A stretch of DNA of 64,000 nt, taken from NCBI GenBank assembly GCA_945862165.1, contig CAMAXI010000005.1, positions 62,001 through 126,000 of the forward strand, written 5' to 3'. The notes beneath the pieces are model-generated. The model worked only from the letters and a program-made list of their open reading frames with translations. It made no database searches and was not told where the DNA came from. Within the stretch, counting starts at the first letter, position 1; the number at the start of each line of letters is the position of its first letter. Of this stretch, positions 21,015 through 28,998 are shown in pieces. Source of the DNA: Chryseobacterium gleum (lineage in GTDB: Bacteria > Bacteroidota > Bacteroidia > Flavobacteriales_D > Crocinitomicaceae). The position numbers and the translations under genes are program-made.

Positions 21015-22829
21015 ATGAAAAAAAAACTACTAAACACATTAACATTCGTTTCCTTATTCCTTGTAAGCACTGCAAACGCACAGGTAGGAATTGGTGTACC
21101 AGCTGGTGACATCCATCCTTCTGCGGAGTTGGAAGTAAAATCTACTAAGAAAGGTTTCTTACCTCCACGCATGACCAATGTAGAACGTAATTCTATTATC
21201 TCTCCTGCAACTGGTTTGTTAATTTATCAAACAGATGCGGTTGCTAACAATCCGGCTGGCTTGTACTTTTATGATGGTACAACTTGGAAAAATGGAATAG
21301 GAGCACAAGGGGAAGTTGGCCCAAAAGGAGATAAAGGAGAGACGGGTGCTGCAGGAAATATGCCTTCTGGAACTACCTTGGGTGAAATGAAATATTGGGA
21401 TGGTACAAAATGGGCATCATTGGTAACTAATACTAATGGTCAAATCCTAACCAATTGTGATGGTTTACCTACTTGGACAACGGGAGGTATTTGTCTTGGA
21501 AAAATTGCTTCGTTAAACTGCGATGGAGTTTCAGTAAATGGTGCATTGAATCATGATGCAGTATCTAATGTTTCTTGCGTGTTTAGTTATTTAGGCGGAA
21601 ATGGTGGGGGCTATTCCTCACAAAACATTAGATCTACAGGTGTAACAGGTTTAACTGCTACATTAAGTTCTGGTAAATTTACAAATGGCAATGGTACAGT
21701 GACCTATATAATTGGAGGTATACCAAGTGCAAGCGGAACAGCAAGTTTTGAGGTAAATGTTGGAGGTAAAACATGTACATTAACCCTAACAGTTAATACA
21801 CCAAGCTATATAGTAACGTTAGATCCATTAGGAGGCACAGTCAGTGTAACATCACAAACACTAAAGTATGGTTCCACTTATGGTACCTTACCAATACCAA
21901 TAAAAGAAGGGTATACTTTTACAGGATGGAGTTTAAATGCAACTATAATTACAGAAACAACAAATGTTTCAACAGCGAGTGATCATACACTTGTTGCGCA
22001 ATGGCAAGCGAATAGCTATTTAGTTACTTTTGATTCAAATGGAGGTACCGTAAGTACATCATCACAAACACTAAAGTATGGTTCCACTTATGGTACCTTA
22101 CCAACACCAATAAAAGAAGGATATACTTTTACAGGATGGAGTTTAAATGCTACTAGAATTACAGAAACAACAAATGTTGCAACAGCAAGTAATCATACAC
22201 TTGTTGCGCAATGGAAACTATTTGAGCCAACTATTTTAGATATAGATGGTAATATATATAATACAGTGTACATAGGCACCCAGCATTGGATGGCAGAAAA
22301 TTTAAGTGTCTCAAAATACAGCGATGGAACAGCTATACCATACATTACGGATGATACGCAATGGAGACAGGTATTAACAGGTGCTTGGTGTTATTACAAT
22401 AATGATAAAGAACAAGGTTTTGGAAAGTTATACAATTGGCGTGCAGTGAGTAAAACAACCAATGGCAATAAAAATGTTTGTCCAACAGGTTGGCACGTGC
22501 CTACAGACGGTGAATGGACGGTTTTAACAGAGTATTTAGGCGGCGCAAGTGTAGCAGGAGGTAAAATGAAAGTAATGTATACATGGTACTGGCAACACCC
22601 AAACATAGACGCTACAAATACATCATTATTTTCGGCGCTTCCGGGCGGGAACCGCTCCTTCCTCTTTGGGAATTACAGCTCCATGAACAACCTCGGTAAC
22701 TGGTGGAGTTCGACAGAGAGCGATCAAGAAAATGCTTGGTACCGCTACCTGAACTCCAGCAATGGCGTTGCATCCAGAGGCAACTACAATAAGAATCAAG
22801 GTTTTTCTGTACGTTGTTTAAAAGATTAA
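21015..22829 (+). CDS. Collagen-like surface protein 2 with InlB-type repeats and Fib_succ_major domain
   Basis: Shared signal peptide and head domain (1-95), a short Gly-X-Y stretch (95-115), then a Cys-containing region. Two tandem InlB B-type (Listeria-Bacteroides) repeats follow at about 270-400 ([19 protein letters not shown]). The end is a Fibrobacter-succinogenes major paralogous domain ([20 protein letters not shown], then [20 protein letters not shown]). Its last 60 residues, from LPGGNR to SVRCLKD, are unusually rich in NNC codons and resemble a DGR variable region. Probably a surface adhesin. Confidence 0.85.
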
Positions 22830-22887: not shown

Positions 22888-24138
22888 ATGAAAAAAACAC
22901 TACTAAACACATTAGCCCTAGCTACCTTATTCTTTGCTAGCGCTGCAAATGCACAAGTTGGGGTAGGTGTACCAGCTGGTGACATTCATCCTTCTGCGGA
23001 GTTGGAAGTGAAATCTACTACGAAAGGTTTTTTGCCTCCACGTTTGACCTATGCAGAACGTAATTCTATTGCTACTCCTGCAACTGGTTTGTTAATTTAT
23101 CAAACAGATGCGGTTGCTAATAATCCAGCAGGTTTGTACTTTTATGATGGTATAACTTGGAAAAGTGGATTGGGTGTTGTAGGTGCAAATGGTGCTACCG
23201 GACCAGCAGGTACTGCAGGAATAAATGGAACAACTGGTGCTACAGGACCAGCAGGTCCAAAAGGAGATAGAGGTGAAACTGGTTTAACTGGAACTGCAGG
23301 TGCTATCGGACCAAAAGGAGATAGAGGTGAAACTGGACCAGCAGGTGCAACTGGTGCTACAGGACCAGCAGGTCCTAAAGGAGATGCAGGAAATGGTTTT
23401 AACAATGGAACAGCAAAAAACCAAATAATGTATTGGAATGGAAGCGCATGGGTTACATTAAACCCGGGCTCAGATGATCAATTTTTAAAAATTTCTAATG
23501 GAAATTTAATTTGGTCTTTGATAGAAGGATATGGTAAGCCCATTACAGATATAGATGGTAACGTATATAGAACAGTAAATATCGGTAACCAACAATGGAT
23601 GGCAGAAAACTTAAAAGTAAGTAAATACAACGATGGTACTGACATCCCAAACATCATAGATGCTGCCGAATGGTCAAGCTTAACAACAGGTGCTTGGGCA
23701 TATTACAACAACAATGAAGCAAATAATGATAAATATGGTAAGTTATACAACTGGTATGCTGTAAGCCCTGACAAAAAAAATGTTTGCCCTACAGGTTGGC
23801 ACGTACCAACGGATGCTGAATGGACAGTTTTAACAGAGTATTTAGGAGGTGGAACAGTTGCCGGAGGTAGAATGAAAGAAGTAGGCATAACAAGCTGGAT
23901 TAGCCCGAATACAGACGCAACTAATTCGTCATTATTTACAGGTCTACCTGGAGGTATTCGTGGTGATAATGGATCTTGCTACGTCTTTGGCATAAACGGT
24001 TACTGGTGGAGTTCTTCTGAGTACGAGGGTTACACAAACTATGCTTGGAACCGAGGCCTGAGCAAAGAAATTGGAACTGTGTACACAAACTCCTTCGGTA
24101 AGAAAGAAGGCTTGTCTGTTAGATGCCTTAAAGATTGA
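22888..24138 (+). CDS. Collagen-like surface protein 3 with Fib_succ_major domain
   Basis: Start at ATG 22888, which gives the shared [10 protein letters not shown] signal peptide; an in-frame ATG 42 bases upstream lies before it. Shared head domain, then Gly-X-Y triplets ([16 protein letters not shown] and similar, about 90-170). A Fib_succ_major domain follows ([40 protein letters not shown]). It ends like protein 2 (LPGGIR...SVRCLKD) but with different residues at the DGR-type variable positions. The upstream leader is near-identical to those of its neighbours. Confidence 0.85.
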
Positions 24139-24228: not shown

Positions 24229-25365
24229 ATGAAAAAAAAAGTATTAAACACATTAGCCCTAGCTACCTTATTCTTTGCGAGCACTGCAAATGCACAAGTT
24301 GGGGTAGGAGTACCAGCTGGTGACATTCATCCTTCTGCAGAGTTGGAAGTAAAATCTACTACGAAAGGTTTCTTACCTCCACGTATGACCTATGCAGAGC
24401 GTAATTCTATTGCTACTCCTGCAGCTGGTTTGTTAATTTATCAAACAGATGCGGTTGCTAACAATCCAGCAGGTTTGTACTTTTATGATGGTACAGCTTG
24501 GAAAAATGGATTGGGTGTTGTAGGTGCAACTGGTGCAACAGGACCAGCAGGTGCAAAAGGAGATAGAGGTGAAACTGGTTTAAATGGAGCAGCAGGTGCT
24601 ATTGGTCCAAAAGGAGATAAAGGTGAAACTGGTATGCAAGGCGAAATCGGTTTAAAAGGAGATACTGGCGCACAAGGTGAAACTGGTGCTGTTGGCCAAA
24701 ATGGAGACAAAGGAGACCAAGGAATTCAAGGCGCAGTTGGAGCTCAAGGAATTCAAGGCCCACAAGGCCCAGCAGGCGCTACCGGTCCAGCAGGTCCTCA
24801 AGGCCCAGCAGGTACACAAGGAGCAGTAGGCCCTCAAGGTCCTGCAGGGATTTCTTTTGGTACAGATGGTCAACCGCTTCACTATATTGGTGAAAACTAT
24901 GGCGGTGGTACAGTATTTTTTGTGTACGATAATGGACAACATGGTTTAATAGCAGCACCTACCGATCAAAGTACATCCATAAAATGGTGGAACGGAACAG
25001 GAAGATATACTGGCTCAAAAGGCGACGGTTTACGCGCAGGCGAAATGAATACTGCTATGATTGTTGCTACACAAGTACCAGATAACCAAACTTTAAATTT
25101 TGCTGCAAGAGTTTGCGCGGATTATTCAGTAAGTTTAGGAGGTATAACTTATGGTGACTGGTATTTGCCTTCAAAATATGAGTTGAATCTTTTATATCAG
25201 AATAGAGATAAGGTTCCAAATCTAGCTTCAGCTGTCTATTGGAGTAGTACAGAGTTTAACCAAATCGTTGCTTGGTACATCGACTTCTCCAATGGTAATG
25301 TTGATTATAACGACTTCAACAAGAGTGCTGCAAACTACTACGTGCGTGCAATTCGTTCTTTTTAG
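24229..25365 (+). CDS. Collagen-like surface protein 4 with Lcl_C/DUF1566 domain
   Basis: Shared signal peptide and head domain (1-95), then the longest uninterrupted collagen stretch of the set (about 98-205, with [18 protein letters not shown] and GPAGPQGPAG). The C-terminus is a DUF1566/Lcl_C domain (GGGTVFFVYDNGQHGLIAA, YGDWYLPSKYELNLLY, VYWSSTEF, YYVRAIRSF). This order matches the Legionella Lcl adhesin. The stretch 25238-25345 shows DGR-type variable-region character. Likely a surface adhesin. Confidence 0.85.
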   Translation: MKKKVLNTLALATLFFASTANAQVGVGVPAGDIHPSAELEVKSTTKGFLPPRMTYAERNSIATPAAGLLIYQTDAVANNPAGLYFYDGTAWKNGLGVVGATGATGPAGAKGDRGETGLNGAAGAIGPKGDKGETGMQGEIGLKGDTGAQGETGAVGQNGDKGDQGIQGAVGAQGIQGPQGPAGATGPAGPQGPAGTQGAVGPQGPAGISFGTDGQPLHYIGENYGGGTVFFVYDNGQHGLIAAPTDQSTSIKWWNGTGRYTGSKGDGLRAGEMNTAMIVATQVPDNQTLNFAARVCADYSVSLGGITYGDWYLPSKYELNLLYQNRDKVPNLASAVYWSSTEFNQIVAWYIDFSNGNVDYNDFNKSAANYYVRAIRSF

Positions 25366-25437: not shown

Positions 25438-28400
25438 ATGAAAAAAATAGTATTCACCCTTGCAATTACGATACTGAGTATTCTTAGTGGTAATGCGCAA
25501 ACTACAAAAAGTCTTATTTCTGTAGGAAACAACTCCGGTTTTAACATAAAAGCTGGTACAACCGTAAGTGCTAATCAATTAGAGGTAATTCCTACGAATG
25601 ATTTTAGTGTAACTACGAGTTTAAATTATAACTTAAAGACAGGTAAAACGATCGGAAACGATTTAGTAAATATTGTTAGTGGGTATACTTTTGACACACC
25701 AACAAATGCTTTTTCTGGAAGTGTTGGGTTTGTTTACAGTTCGGATGAATTGAACACAACTACTGAAAGTTCTTTGAAGTTATTGTATAACAATGGTGTA
25801 AAATGGCTAATCGACAAAACAGGAATCAATGCTTCTAAAAAAGTAACTACTTCACTATCCAACAAAAACTTAAAAGAATTAACGCTTGGAAATTGTGTTA
25901 CAACACCTTCGATTACACAGATAACAGCTTGTGGTTCATATTCTTGGAATGGAACAGTATATAACAAAACAGGCATATATGAATTTAAAACAACGAGTAA
26001 GCAAGGTTGTGATTCTATTGCTAAATTAGATTTAACCATTCCTGCGATAGGAACACTTACATTATTCTCTGCAGGTGGATCAAACGCACAGGTTAAATGT
26101 AATAAAACTGCAATTACACCAATTGTCTACACTACTTCTACCGGTACAACAAACGCAACAGTAACAGGTTTACCAGCAGGAGTTACAGGTGCTTGGGCAG
26201 CTGGTAAATTCACAATCAGTGGTACACCAACAGTAACAGGTGTGTTTAATTACACGGTTACATCAGTAGGAACATGTGCGACAGCAACTGGTAAAATCAC
26301 GGTTAATCAAAACACGATGCTACTAACGTCTGCTGTTAATTCAGACAAACAAACATTTTGTATCACTTCTACTAGTATACCTATTACCTATGCTACTGTA
26401 GGAGCAACAGGAGCAACCATTACAAATTTACCATTAGGAGTAACTGGTTATTTTGGACCGGCATTAAATACACCAGAAGGAAAAAATCAAGTCAATATCA
26501 GCGGAATACCTTCAGTTGCTGGTACGTATAACTATACGGTAACCTTAACAGGTGGATGTGGTGTTACAACTGCAAATGGGGTATATGTAGTTAATCCAAA
26601 AAACACGATTACATTAACTTCTGTCGCTGCAACAGCTTTACAAACAAAATGTATCAAAACAGCAATCACAGACATTATCTACACAACAACAACTGCAACT
26701 GGTGCAACGGTATCCGGTTTGCCAGCAGGTGTAACAGGCTCTTGGTCAGCTAATAAGTTTATTATTTCTGGAACACCAACTGTTGCTGGAATATTTAATT
26801 ATACAGTAACTACTGTTGGTGGTTGTTCAGTAGCAACAGCTAAAGGCACAATCAACTCTACGATTAACACCATCGCGCTATCTTCTGCAGCAGGTACAGA
26901 TGCACAAACAAAATGTATCGGTACAGCGATTGTTCCTGTAACGTATACAACAAGTATTGCAACTGGTGCAACTGTAAGCGGTTTACCAGCAGGTGTAAGT
27001 GGCGTTTGGGGAGCTAATAAATTAACGATTAGTGGTACACCAACCGTAGCAGGAAACTTTACTTACACGATTACCTTAACAGGAGGATGTGAAGTAATTA
27101 CGAAAACTGGTACATTAGTGGTTAGTCCGAATAACACAGTAACTTTAAGTTCAGGATTAAATTCTAACGTAAAAGAGGTGTGTGTTGGAGCAACTCTTGC
27201 TCCAATTACATATACTACAACCGGAGCAACCGGAGTAACCTTTACTGGTCTACCAGCAGGTGTAAAAGCTATTTGGGCAGCTAATACAATTACCATTAGT
27301 GGCATTCCAACTGCAGCGGGTGTATATCCTTATACAGTAACTGCTACAGGTGGTTGTTCGGTAGTACTTGCAAAAGGTACTATTACGGTGAATGCAATAA
27401 ATACGATTGCTTTGACTTCTGCAGCAGGTACAGATAAACAAACAATTTGTACAAATGGTTCTATTATTAATATAGGGTATAAAACTACAGGAGCAACAGC
27501 TGTTACCGTTGCAAATTTACCAGCAGGTTTAACACAATCGTCATCTGCTGGAGTTGTAACTATTAGTGGAAAACCAACAGCAACTGGTACCTATACAATC
27601 ACTGCATCTGGTAAATGTGAATCTAAAGTAGCTTCCGGTACTATTACCATAGCACCTTTAAACACTTTGACTTTAACAGCAGGAAATGCTAGTGTAAAAG
27701 AAGTGTGTGTTAATGCGGTTCTTTCCGATATTACGTATAATTCAACAGGAGCGACTGGCGCAACTTTTGCAGGTTTACCAGCAGGTGTAACAGGTAAATT
27801 TTTGAGTAATGTTATTACTTTAGCAGGTAAACCTACAACAAAAGGAGTATATGCATATACCGTAACTGGTACTGGAGGATGTCCAGGTGTTGCAGCAAAA
27901 GGAACGATTACGGTGAATGAACTAAATGCAATTACCTTAACTTCTGTAGCAGCAACAGCTAATCAAACTGTTTGTACAGGTAGTCCAATCACGCAAATCG
28001 GGTACAAAATTACAGGAACAACTTCCGTTCAGGTTTCAACTTTACCAGGTTTGTCGCAAACGAACACTGCAGGCGTAATTACAATCAGTGGTACACCAAG
28101 TGCATCTGTTAATTATTCCATCACAGCAAATGGTAAATGCCCATCTGTTACAGTTTTAGGTAAAATAACTGTGAATCCAGCTAATACCATTACATTAGAA
28201 CCTACATCTGCATCCAATGTACAAAATATTTGTGCTAAATCTGCTATTGGTAATATCTTATACAAAACGACTGGAGCTACAAATGCAACATTCACTGGTT
28301 TACCATTAGGAGTTAAAGGTACTTGGGTGAATAATTTAGTAACATTGAGCGGTAATCCTTATGTTTCGGGAACTTCTAAATATACGGTAACCTTAACAGG

Positions 28401-28998
28401 TGGATGTAAAGTAGTAACAGCGACAGGAACTATCACGATTGGAGCTGAGAATAAACTTACCTTGACATCCGCAGCAGCTACAACGAGCCAAACGGTAAAA
28501 GTAGGAGTGCCAATTGCGCCTATTACCTATACAACGCTAGGAGCAACAACTGTAAATGTTACAAATTTACCAGCAGGAGTAGGTAGCGCTTGGGCAGCTA
28601 ATAAATTAACGATAAGTGGAACACCAACAACAGTTGGAAATAAGACTTATAATGTAGAGTTAGTTAGTGTATGTCCTAGGGTAAATGGTACAGGTTTCAT
28701 CAATGTTACGGGTAGTGGACCAGGAACAGCTTTAAGACCGGTATCTGAATCGAATATTGAGGTTACTTCCTATCCTAACCCATTCAGTACTGCTTTTAGA
28801 ATGAATGTGGTTTCACAAAGTGAAGAACCAATTGCAGTTCAAATAACAGATATGGTTGGTCGCATCGTTGAGAATCATGTGATCAATAGCTTTGAACTTT
28901 CTGAAAAAGAAATAGGTGAGGCATATCCAGTAGGAGTTTACAACATTGTGTTAACACAAGGAAGTGAGACAACTACATTTAGAATTGTGAAACAATAA
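25438..28998 (+). CDS. Giant Ig-like repeat adhesin with T9SS sorting domain
   Basis: 1186 residues. Signal peptide (1-20), a unique N-terminal domain (20-200), then ten tandem repeats of about 80-90 residues. Each repeat has a conserved start (TITLTSVAAT), usually one Cys, GLPAGVTG, ISGTPT and YTVTLTGGC, the pattern of putative Ig/cadherin-like beta sandwiches. The last 75 residues are a T9SS type A sorting domain (SYPNPFSTAF, DMVGRIVE, GVYNIVL, RIVKQ). It should be exported by T9SS and fixed to the cell surface. Its leader resembles those of the collagen-like genes. Confidence 0.88.
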   Translation: MKKIVFTLAITILSILSGNAQTTKSLISVGNNSGFNIKAGTTVSANQLEVIPTNDFSVTTSLNYNLKTGKTIGNDLVNIVSGYTFDTPTNAFSGSVGFVYSSDELNTTTESSLKLLYNNGVKWLIDKTGINASKKVTTSLSNKNLKELTLGNCVTTPSITQITACGSYSWNGTVYNKTGIYEFKTTSKQGCDSIAKLDLTIPAIGTLTLFSAGGSNAQVKCNKTAITPIVYTTSTGTTNATVTGLPAGVTGAWAAGKFTISGTPTVTGVFNYTVTSVGTCATATGKITVNQNTMLLTSAVNSDKQTFCITSTSIPITYATVGATGATITNLPLGVTGYFGPALNTPEGKNQVNISGIPSVAGTYNYTVTLTGGCGVTTANGVYVVNPKNTITLTSVAATALQTKCIKTAITDIIYTTTTATGATVSGLPAGVTGSWSANKFIISGTPTVAGIFNYTVTTVGGCSVATAKGTINSTINTIALSSAAGTDAQTKCIGTAIVPVTYTTSIATGATVSGLPAGVSGVWGANKLTISGTPTVAGNFTYTITLTGGCEVITKTGTLVVSPNNTVTLSSGLNSNVKEVCVGATLAPITYTTTGATGVTFTGLPAGVKAIWAANTITISGIPTAAGVYPYTVTATGGCSVVLAKGTITVNAINTIALTSAAGTDKQTICTNGSIINIGYKTTGATAVTVANLPAGLTQSSSAGVVTISGKPTATGTYTITASGKCESKVASGTITIAPLNTLTLTAGNASVKEVCVNAVLSDITYNSTGATGATFAGLPAGVTGKFLSNVITLAGKPTTKGVYAYTVTGTGGCPGVAAKGTITVNELNAITLTSVAATANQTVCTGSPITQIGYKITGTTSVQVSTLPGLSQTNTAGVITISGTPSASVNYSITANGKCPSVTVLGKITVNPANTITLEPTSASNVQNICAKSAIGNILYKTTGATNATFTGLPLGVKGTWVNNLVTLSGNPYVSGTSKYTVTLTGGCKVVTATGTITIGAENKLTLTSAAATTSQTVKVGVPIAPITYTTLGATTVNVTNLPAGVGSAWAANKLTISGTPTTVGNKTYNVELVSVCPRVNGTGFINVTGSGPGTALRPVSESNIEVTSYPNPFSTAFRMNVVSQSEEPIAVQITDMVGRIVENHVINSFELSEKEIGEAYPVGVYNIVLTQGSETTTFRIVKQ

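Follow-up and report, generated by a model that had tools for sequence, protein, structure and literature searches.

A remote variable region of probable retroelement origin, apparently no longer diversified, at the end of a FISUMP-domain gene in a Bacteroidota genome

Introduction

When codon usage changes abruptly over the last codons of a gene for a secreted-looking protein, does this mark a diversity-generating retroelement (DGR) variable region (VR), and, if so, is that region still being written? In DGRs, the RNA of a template repeat (TR) is reverse-transcribed by the reverse transcriptase (RT) and Avd, with misincorporation at adenines. The question was raised by the initial annotation of the window, a 64,000-nucleotide stretch of DNA from the genome G000 (38 contigs, 2.89 Mb), in which the last 60 codons of a "collagen-like protein 2" (here P2) turn to C-ending codons. 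It read them as the product of adenine-directed mutagenesis of asparagine codons in a lectin-like scaffold, with a template that should lie beside an RT and an Avd gene elsewhere in the genome. Here we follow this reading through the genome, its genus and more distant relatives, and weigh it against three rival explanations.

P2 and its tandem paralogues

The features needed in what follows are, in window coordinates unless a contig is named:

21015..22829, + strand: P2, the VR-bearing gene; open reading frame of 604 amino acids with an apparent signal peptide (by eye) and Pfam matches
22266..22823, + strand: FISUMP (Fib_succ_major, PF09603) domain of P2; Pfam E 7.5e-37; modelled C-type-lectin-like fold, with the VR as its C-terminal part
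22638..22796, + strand: putative DGR VR core, the template-derived tract, from a codon alignment with the TR; one codon longer than the present TR
22797..22829, + strand: 3' tail beyond the rewritten tract, diverged from the TR; candidate IMH by its position
22888..24138, + strand: P3, collagen and FISUMP, tandem paralogue; the final ~60 codons carry a weak VR-like signal that falls short of significance in the strict test
24229..25365, + strand: P4, collagen and Lcl_C (DUF1566) domain by Pfam; VR signature not supported
G000:C24:24659-24845: TR, found by DNA search with the window VR
G000:C24:25516-25742: cis VR, found by the same search

A recount of the 60 codons from position 22638 returned 25 NNC and 17 NNT codons, exactly as first reported, against 58 NNC among the 541 codons elsewhere in P2 (Fisher p=1.3e-8) and with a GC content of 0.49 versus 0.38. 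The richest 60-codon stretch of P2 holds 26 NNC codons, those of four neighbouring genes 10 to 18. P2 belongs to an array of four tandem, secreted-looking paralogues (P1-P4) that, by eye, have their N-terminus in common. Pfam Collagen matches are found in P1, P3 and P4, with FISUMP at the C-terminus of P3 and Lcl_C at that of P4; in P2, Pfam found no Collagen match and recognised Listeria-Bacteroides repeats and FISUMP instead, so that the name "collagen-like" holds for a single short Gly-X-Y stretch seen by eye, P2's sole collagen-like part, but not at the level of Pfam. FISUMP forms the C-terminus of P2, so that the VR falls in the 3'-terminal part of a gene whose last domain is modelled as C-type-lectin-like. 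The DUF1566 domain of P4 represents the other known DGR target fold. Downstream of the array, positions 25438-28998 of the window encode a 1186-residue repeat protein with a T9SS sorting domain. The genus as a whole has ~230 FISUMP matches; single genomes contain between 9 and 32, frequently close-set in tandem.

That the end of P2 would form a lectin-like scaffold agrees with both its FISUMP assignment and its predicted structure. An AlphaFold2 model built from 51 sequences (pLDDT 93.2, pTM 0.90), in which the VR covers residues 137 to 199 and includes the last four strands, found its best VIA-align neighbour in InvE (Z 8.3; 3.3 Å over 113 residues), followed by the C-terminal domain of Legionella Lcl (Z 7.5; 2.6 Å over 97 residues), PorKN (Z 7.5), the formylglycine-generating enzyme (FGE; Z 7.1; 4.4 Å over 162 residues) and many C-type lectins (Z 5-6.6). 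Foldseek alone gave no match with E below 0.001, and the FISUMP profile had no match at E<=0.01 among the sequences of solved structures. As only one Z exceeds 8, no Foldseek E falls below 0.001 and non-lectin enzymes stand among the neighbours, the predicted C-type-lectin-like fold of the P2 domain leans on the consistency of middling Z scores.

A DGR cassette on a separate contig

Searched with the DNA of the window VR at E<=10, G000 returned 21 places. Three were strong: the VR itself and, as the only strong non-self matches, the TR and the cis VR on contig C24 (E 8e-27 and 3e-29; the next match had 0.013). The predicted template copy beside an RT and an Avd gene thus turned up (RVT_1, bAvd and TR, all on C24), in the order small T9SS-tail open reading frame, collagen-FISUMP target (583 amino acids), Avd (131), TR and RT (437). 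The RT carries the sole RVT_1 match of G000 (C24:23686-24381; 83.9 bits, cut-off 29.6) and the motif IGNLTSQ, which we take to be a DGR hallmark; in NCBIfam nothing exceeded its cut-off, the best model being a group II intron RT (101.7 versus 300 bits). Avd matches PF22296 (bAvd) at 58.4 bits, above the cut-off of 40, and NCBIfam NF033474 at 64.8 bits, below the cut-off of 80. Both the RT and the Avd reading frames are open in G000.

Between the cis VR and the TR, 33/76 adenines and 6/122 other bases are different (p=5e-11), five of the six non-adenine differences falling in four codons upstream of the repeat; counted separately, the core has 1/88 and the tail 0/25 non-adenine differences. By these features of its sequence, RT, Avd, TR and a near-identical cis VR differing at adenines, the C24 cassette is classed as a DGR, and the RVT_1 match, the adenine-specific TR-VR neighbours of related RTs and IGNLTSQ place its RT in the DGR clade. 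The window lies on C5 (191,408 bases), with the VR at C5 84,638-84,829, at least 84 kb from either contig end and hence from the cassette. One end of C24 (L022:11400-11514) appears by eye to be 5S-rRNA-like, so that the DGR may adjoin an rRNA operon break; such a position could make contigs of this kind prone to loss from draft genomes.

Mismatches to the template cluster at its adenines

Apart from the TR, G000 has 17 FISUMP domains, and each was codon-aligned to the TR, a template rich in asparagine codons with a 62-residue translation. The window VR differs at 34/76 adenines and 21/122 other bases (p=4e-5), with 5 of these 21 non-adenine differences in the four codons ahead of the repeat start. 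Two paralogues give intermediate values, P3 (35/76 and 30/122; p=0.003) and a FISUMP domain on contig C3 (40/76 and 34/122; p=5e-4), and the remaining 13 of the 15 other domains have p>=0.039, with 0.45 to 0.62 of the other bases different. The codon view is sharper: where the amino acid of an AAC template codon has changed, the codon still ends in C in 13/14 cases in the window VR (p=5e-10) and in 16/16 in the cis VR, but in 10/16 in the C3 domain and 8/15 in P3 (9/16 and 9/15 in a larger alignment), and in 0 to 4 of 15 to 19 in the other 13 domains (best p=0.03). Over 26 AAY template codons, P2 agrees with the TR at 0.46, 0.54 and 0.96 of first, second and third positions (third base 25/26), the reverse of the profile of the upstream flank, where P2 and the cis gene agree at 0.82, 0.82 and 0.62.

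This profile bears on the reading that dispenses with a DGR and explains the NNC bias by the common ancestry of FISUMP domains and diversifying selection at ligand-contact codons. Such a reading could draw on the translation of the TR as a FISUMP end whose asparagine codons fall on sites variable across FISUMP domains, and on the intermediate values of P3 and the C3 domain. Third bases of AAY codons nearly untouched (96% kept, versus 62% in the flank), with first and second bases changed, are an uneasy fit to selection on amino acids and fit template copying with errors at adenines; moreover, 13 other FISUMP domains of the same genome do not keep their third bases, and an RT-Avd-TR cassette exists in G000. 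The third-base and codon-position tests largely refute this reading, to which we attach very little credence. The identification of P2 as a DGR target accordingly stands, supported by the RT, Avd and TR in the same genome and by the adenine-concentrated differences, and the window VR is almost certainly of DGR origin, whatever the last step that brought it there.

The TR of G000 also fits the window VR best among 17 FISUMP TRs compared (17/110 non-adenine mismatches; second best 27/114), so that no alternative present-day template among these gave a better fit. Looser tests are passed by the ends of P3 (L024, window 23944-24126) and of the C3 domain (L030), with their intermediate adenine bias; at the corrected third-base threshold the C3 domain passes and P3 (p=1e-3) fails, and both fail the strict codon-position test. 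They may possibly be older, decayed VRs. A separate candidate picked by eye, the Lcl_C/DUF1566 end of P4, was rejected when compared with the template of the DGR locus L148 (18/42 adenines, 20/75 other bases; p=0.099; third base 6/11).

A probably old variable region with an altered candidate recognition end

Adenine-directed mutagenesis accounts for the concentration of differences in the window VR, but not for all of them: 8/88 non-adenine bases of the core and 8/25 of the last ten codons differ from the TR, and the tract holds one inserted codon. Nor does the VR extend quite as first drawn, to 22820; its start at 22638 holds, but the rewritten tract ends at 22796, and codons 22797-22826 are less template-like. 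Because the window VR exceeds the cis VR in non-adenine differences and carries an extra codon, the present TR alone did not write it as it now stands, and we read these differences as ageing or as the trace of an ancestral template.

The tail contains the stretch that would, by its position, be the IMH. The 12-mer encoding SVRC (22806-22817) reads TCTGTACGTTGT in the window and TCTGTTAGGTGT in both the TR and the cis VR, with the same amino acids, so that the candidate recognition stretch of the window VR fails to match the template. In related DGRs this 12-mer is identical between TR and VR in 17/17 FISUMP-like pairs, all of them cis pairs and two (L188, L208) only loosely of FISUMP type. 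We read the change as synonymous drift of the recognition end once writing had ceased. A yardstick is provided by 16 VRs, the clearest in three other species of the genus, which, compared with the TR of G000, have 1 to 6/88 non-adenine differences in the core and 1 to 8/25 in the tail, and in all of which (16/16) the non-adenine bases of TCT GTT AGG are unaltered. The window VR thus lies outside their range in the core and only at its edge in the tail, and it is the core, not the tail, that distinguishes it. From its sequence, the window VR, with its core differences (1/88 in the cis VR) and altered 12-mer, has probably been retired; most likely it is old and remote, and no longer being diversified.

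A live VR, still served in trans by the C24 cassette, would require the tail mismatches to be tolerated and a short homology to be enough. The open RT and Avd frames and the TR in the same genome would allow it, as would the 80/88 non-adenine bases that the window core retains; in phage BPP-1, homology of at least 8 bp suffices at the upstream integration end (PMC3240598). In a VR of another species, G034_L328, the tail has diverged just as far (8/25) although the core is clean (2/88), which makes tail divergence compatible with having been written. Set against this are the 12-mer, identical in 17/17 related pairs, though all cis, and the core, whose 8/88 differences would be expected to disappear if the present TR had rewritten it recently. 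We consider continued writing improbable.

In bins along the gene, the identity of P2 to the cis gene is 0.53-0.90 in six flank bins and reaches 1.00 over the four codons that precede the repeat, that to the TR is 0.62-1.00 within the tract and 0.76 and 0.50 after it, and the step at the tract start is weak. Downstream of the window VR no hairpin beyond chance was found (z 0.87; the cis VR itself has z 0.14), and among 20 stretches folded, the two with z below -2 follow a VR-like and a non-VR domain, respectively, and give no consistent signal. Among four relatives searched for an orthologue, the nearest to P2 is on contig C108 of G034 (77%), with identities of 0.75 in the VR, 0.81 upstream and 0.87 downstream, a dip so small that it decides nothing on the P2 VR.

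The weak step is among the points that favour a third alternative, which keeps the DGR origin but has the VR reach P2 by gene conversion or duplication of another VR gene, or by horizontal transfer, and not by retrohoming into P2. FISUMP genes stand in tandem arrays (P2-P3 in the window; C58 and C59 in G024), and the window and cis VRs have TTATTTTCGGCG in common immediately upstream of the TR homology. The two VRs nevertheless differ, by eye, at 24/27 AAY-derived codons, so at least one of them was rewritten after any event of this kind. We regard this route as unlikely, though less so than continued writing.

Our preferred reading is thus that the window VR is a remote DGR VR, written in trans from a forerunner of the present TR and since frozen. 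TR RNA would have been copied by the RT with Avd, with errors at adenines, and the cDNA would have been substituted in trans for the end of P2, as expected from the established mechanism of DGRs; the outcome would be a randomised ligand-facing end of a C-type-lectin-like adhesin. Comparison with the other VRs suggests that the writer was an ancestor of the present TR and that the VR froze later, its 3' recognition stretch drifting synonymously off the template. We give this full reading roughly two chances in three, and not more, because the step at the tract start is weak and other written VRs reach the same tail divergence at the limit of their range.

Related cassettes, leftover regions and remnants

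A scan of genome contigs with an alignment of four RTs yielded 129 RT relatives, of which 80 were kept. Repeat pairs with at least 80% of mismatches at the adenines of one copy were found at 63/80 loci, and the same rule applied to G, C and T returned 1, 0 and 0; a pair with at least 7 mismatches of any kind was present at 73/80. By regular expression, the targets of the 63 are DUF1566-like in 28 cases, FISUMP-like in 17 and fit neither pattern in 18. The nearest RT to that of G000, at L148 (79% in the best segment), has a DUF1566-like target, which indicates that closely related machines serve both folds. Viral contigs contained 89 RT relatives (80 kept), with best-segment identities of at most 57%. 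Some RT matches (G223 C43, G208 C24, G005 C34, G133 C122) have one internal stop or are split in two, and are either decaying DGRs or sequence errors; at G239 C78 (L053, L090), the repeat beside the RT is half VR-like and half template-like, perhaps an assembly chimera.

Within the genus, 13 genomes, one per species, were searched. RVT_1 matches occur in six of them, with eight matches outside G000 and none in G024, G025, G029 and G034. Four of the eight gave comparable YxDD open reading frames, at 23 to 25% identity over longer stretches and 38% over 48 residues; all four are without IGNLTSQ and none is close to the RT of G000. With that RT as query and at E<=1e-30, G000 alone of the 13 matches.

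VR-like domains are nonetheless found in species without an RVT_1 match. We examined 77 FISUMP domains (17 of 17 matches in G000, 21/31 in G024, 16/32 in G025, 17/20 in G034 and 6/10 in G029), of which 26 pass the third-base test at 0.05/77: three in G000 (cis, window and C3), 13/21 in G024, 3/16 in G025, 7/17 in G034 and 0/6 in G029. Together, the RVT_1-less G024, G025 and G034 account for 23 passes among 54 domains examined. In the 16 clearest of these VRs, non-adenine identity is 0.78-0.85 to the cis gene in seven pre-repeat bins and jumps to 0.98 at the bin where TR homology begins; along TR codons 5-58, six of nine bins lie at 0.97-0.99 and three at 0.87-0.89, and the last two bins at 0.79 and 0.86. 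By comparison, 49 non-VR FISUMP domains have no step and stay at 0.25 to 0.74 throughout, ten intermediate domains being left out of this comparison.

The gene adjoining the C24 cassette is matched in 13/13 genus genomes, and by this gene G024 and G034 are closest to G000 (95 and 93% DNA identity). At the same site, both have a target gene with an N-terminus like that of the G000 target (75 and 72% in aligned pieces; the G034 copy runs off its contig), together with part of an Avd gene interrupted by stop codons. This piece lies ~150 bases from the neighbour-gene match, which leaves no space between for a TR and an RT. The target genes end in a DUF1566 VR that fits the template of L148, a locus of another genus, at 17/42 adenines and 2/75 other bases different in G024 (third base 13/13) and 14/42 and 1/75 in G034 (12/12). 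The same chromosomal site thus carries a FISUMP target in G000 (L022) and a DUF1566 target in G024 C41 (L369) and G034 C100 (L370), which, as judged from these alignments, suggests an exchange of target fold at one DGR site. A further remnant, on a 5.9 kb contig of G025, comprises a VR (29/73 adenines, 2/114 other bases) in a gene that the contig end truncates, along with a damaged Avd and half a template, with the RT absent. The three genomes are drafts, with completeness of 99, 90 and 85%, and a second cassette may be missing from their assemblies.

Discussion

Targets of this kind have precedents. In the Treponema denticola DGR, target genes lie remote from the core and persist in isolates without RT and TR, and a remote VR better matched to another TR type was taken as a leftover (PMC4891356). 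Remote and leftover targets are found here too; unlike those of T. denticola, they are FISUMP/DUF1566 adhesins of probable Flavobacteriales, with many leftovers per genome (13 of the 21 domains examined in G024) and cassette remnants in three RT-less species. DGR target domains of the human microbiome include Fib_succ_major in 9 proteins and DUF1566 in 47, with the varied region of the Fib_succ_major example deduced from the position of the domain at the protein end (PMC4159848), whereas in the present case the adenine test links a remote FISUMP VR to a TR that lies on another contig. Single DGRs serving several target genes, often of DUF1566 type, are also on record, with VRs described within the DGR-containing sequence (PMC6642488); the second target here is on a different contig. 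The BPP-1 DGR, whose target is named as lectin-like in the T. denticola study (PMC4891356) and whose target-recognition rules are laid out in PMC3240598, resembles the present case in that a template is copied, with adenine-directed changes, into the last part of a gene whose product has a C-type-lectin-like, receptor-binding end, and differs in that we deal with a bacterial chromosome, a trans target and the FISUMP fold, and found no downstream hairpin at the window VR. The collagen stalk and C-terminal lectin-like domain of P3, P4 and the cis target recall Legionella Lcl (NF046116, PF07603; 8q4e), although their scores fall far below the equivalog cut-off. Our literature search found no paper joining DGRs with FISUMP by name, nor DGRs with collagen-like proteins. 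Since FISUMP and DUF1566 targets (PMC4159848) as well as remote and leftover targets (PMC4891356) have been described, the window VR is of a known type; the striking features of the case are its many leftover VRs and, at a single chromosomal site, the exchange of target fold.

We tentatively propose, at somewhat less than even odds, that the DGRs of this genus are hit-and-run writers: cassettes would randomise a large, dispersed set of FISUMP/DUF1566 adhesins in trans and be lost repeatedly, with the frozen library of binding domains written by the machine kept and perhaps reshuffled, and the window VR would represent a stage of this freezing in the only one of 13 genomes searched that yielded a cassette. 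A large DGR survey notes that its own approach would miss remote targets (PMC8144416), so the genome-wide reach of one cassette is poorly known. Here, a VR on one contig is tied to a TR on another by the adenine test, with 13 paralogues serving as near-negative controls, and the related genomes show what remains once the DGR machine is gone. Should these counts stand up, the influence of DGRs on surface proteins extends further than the presence of reverse transcriptases suggests.
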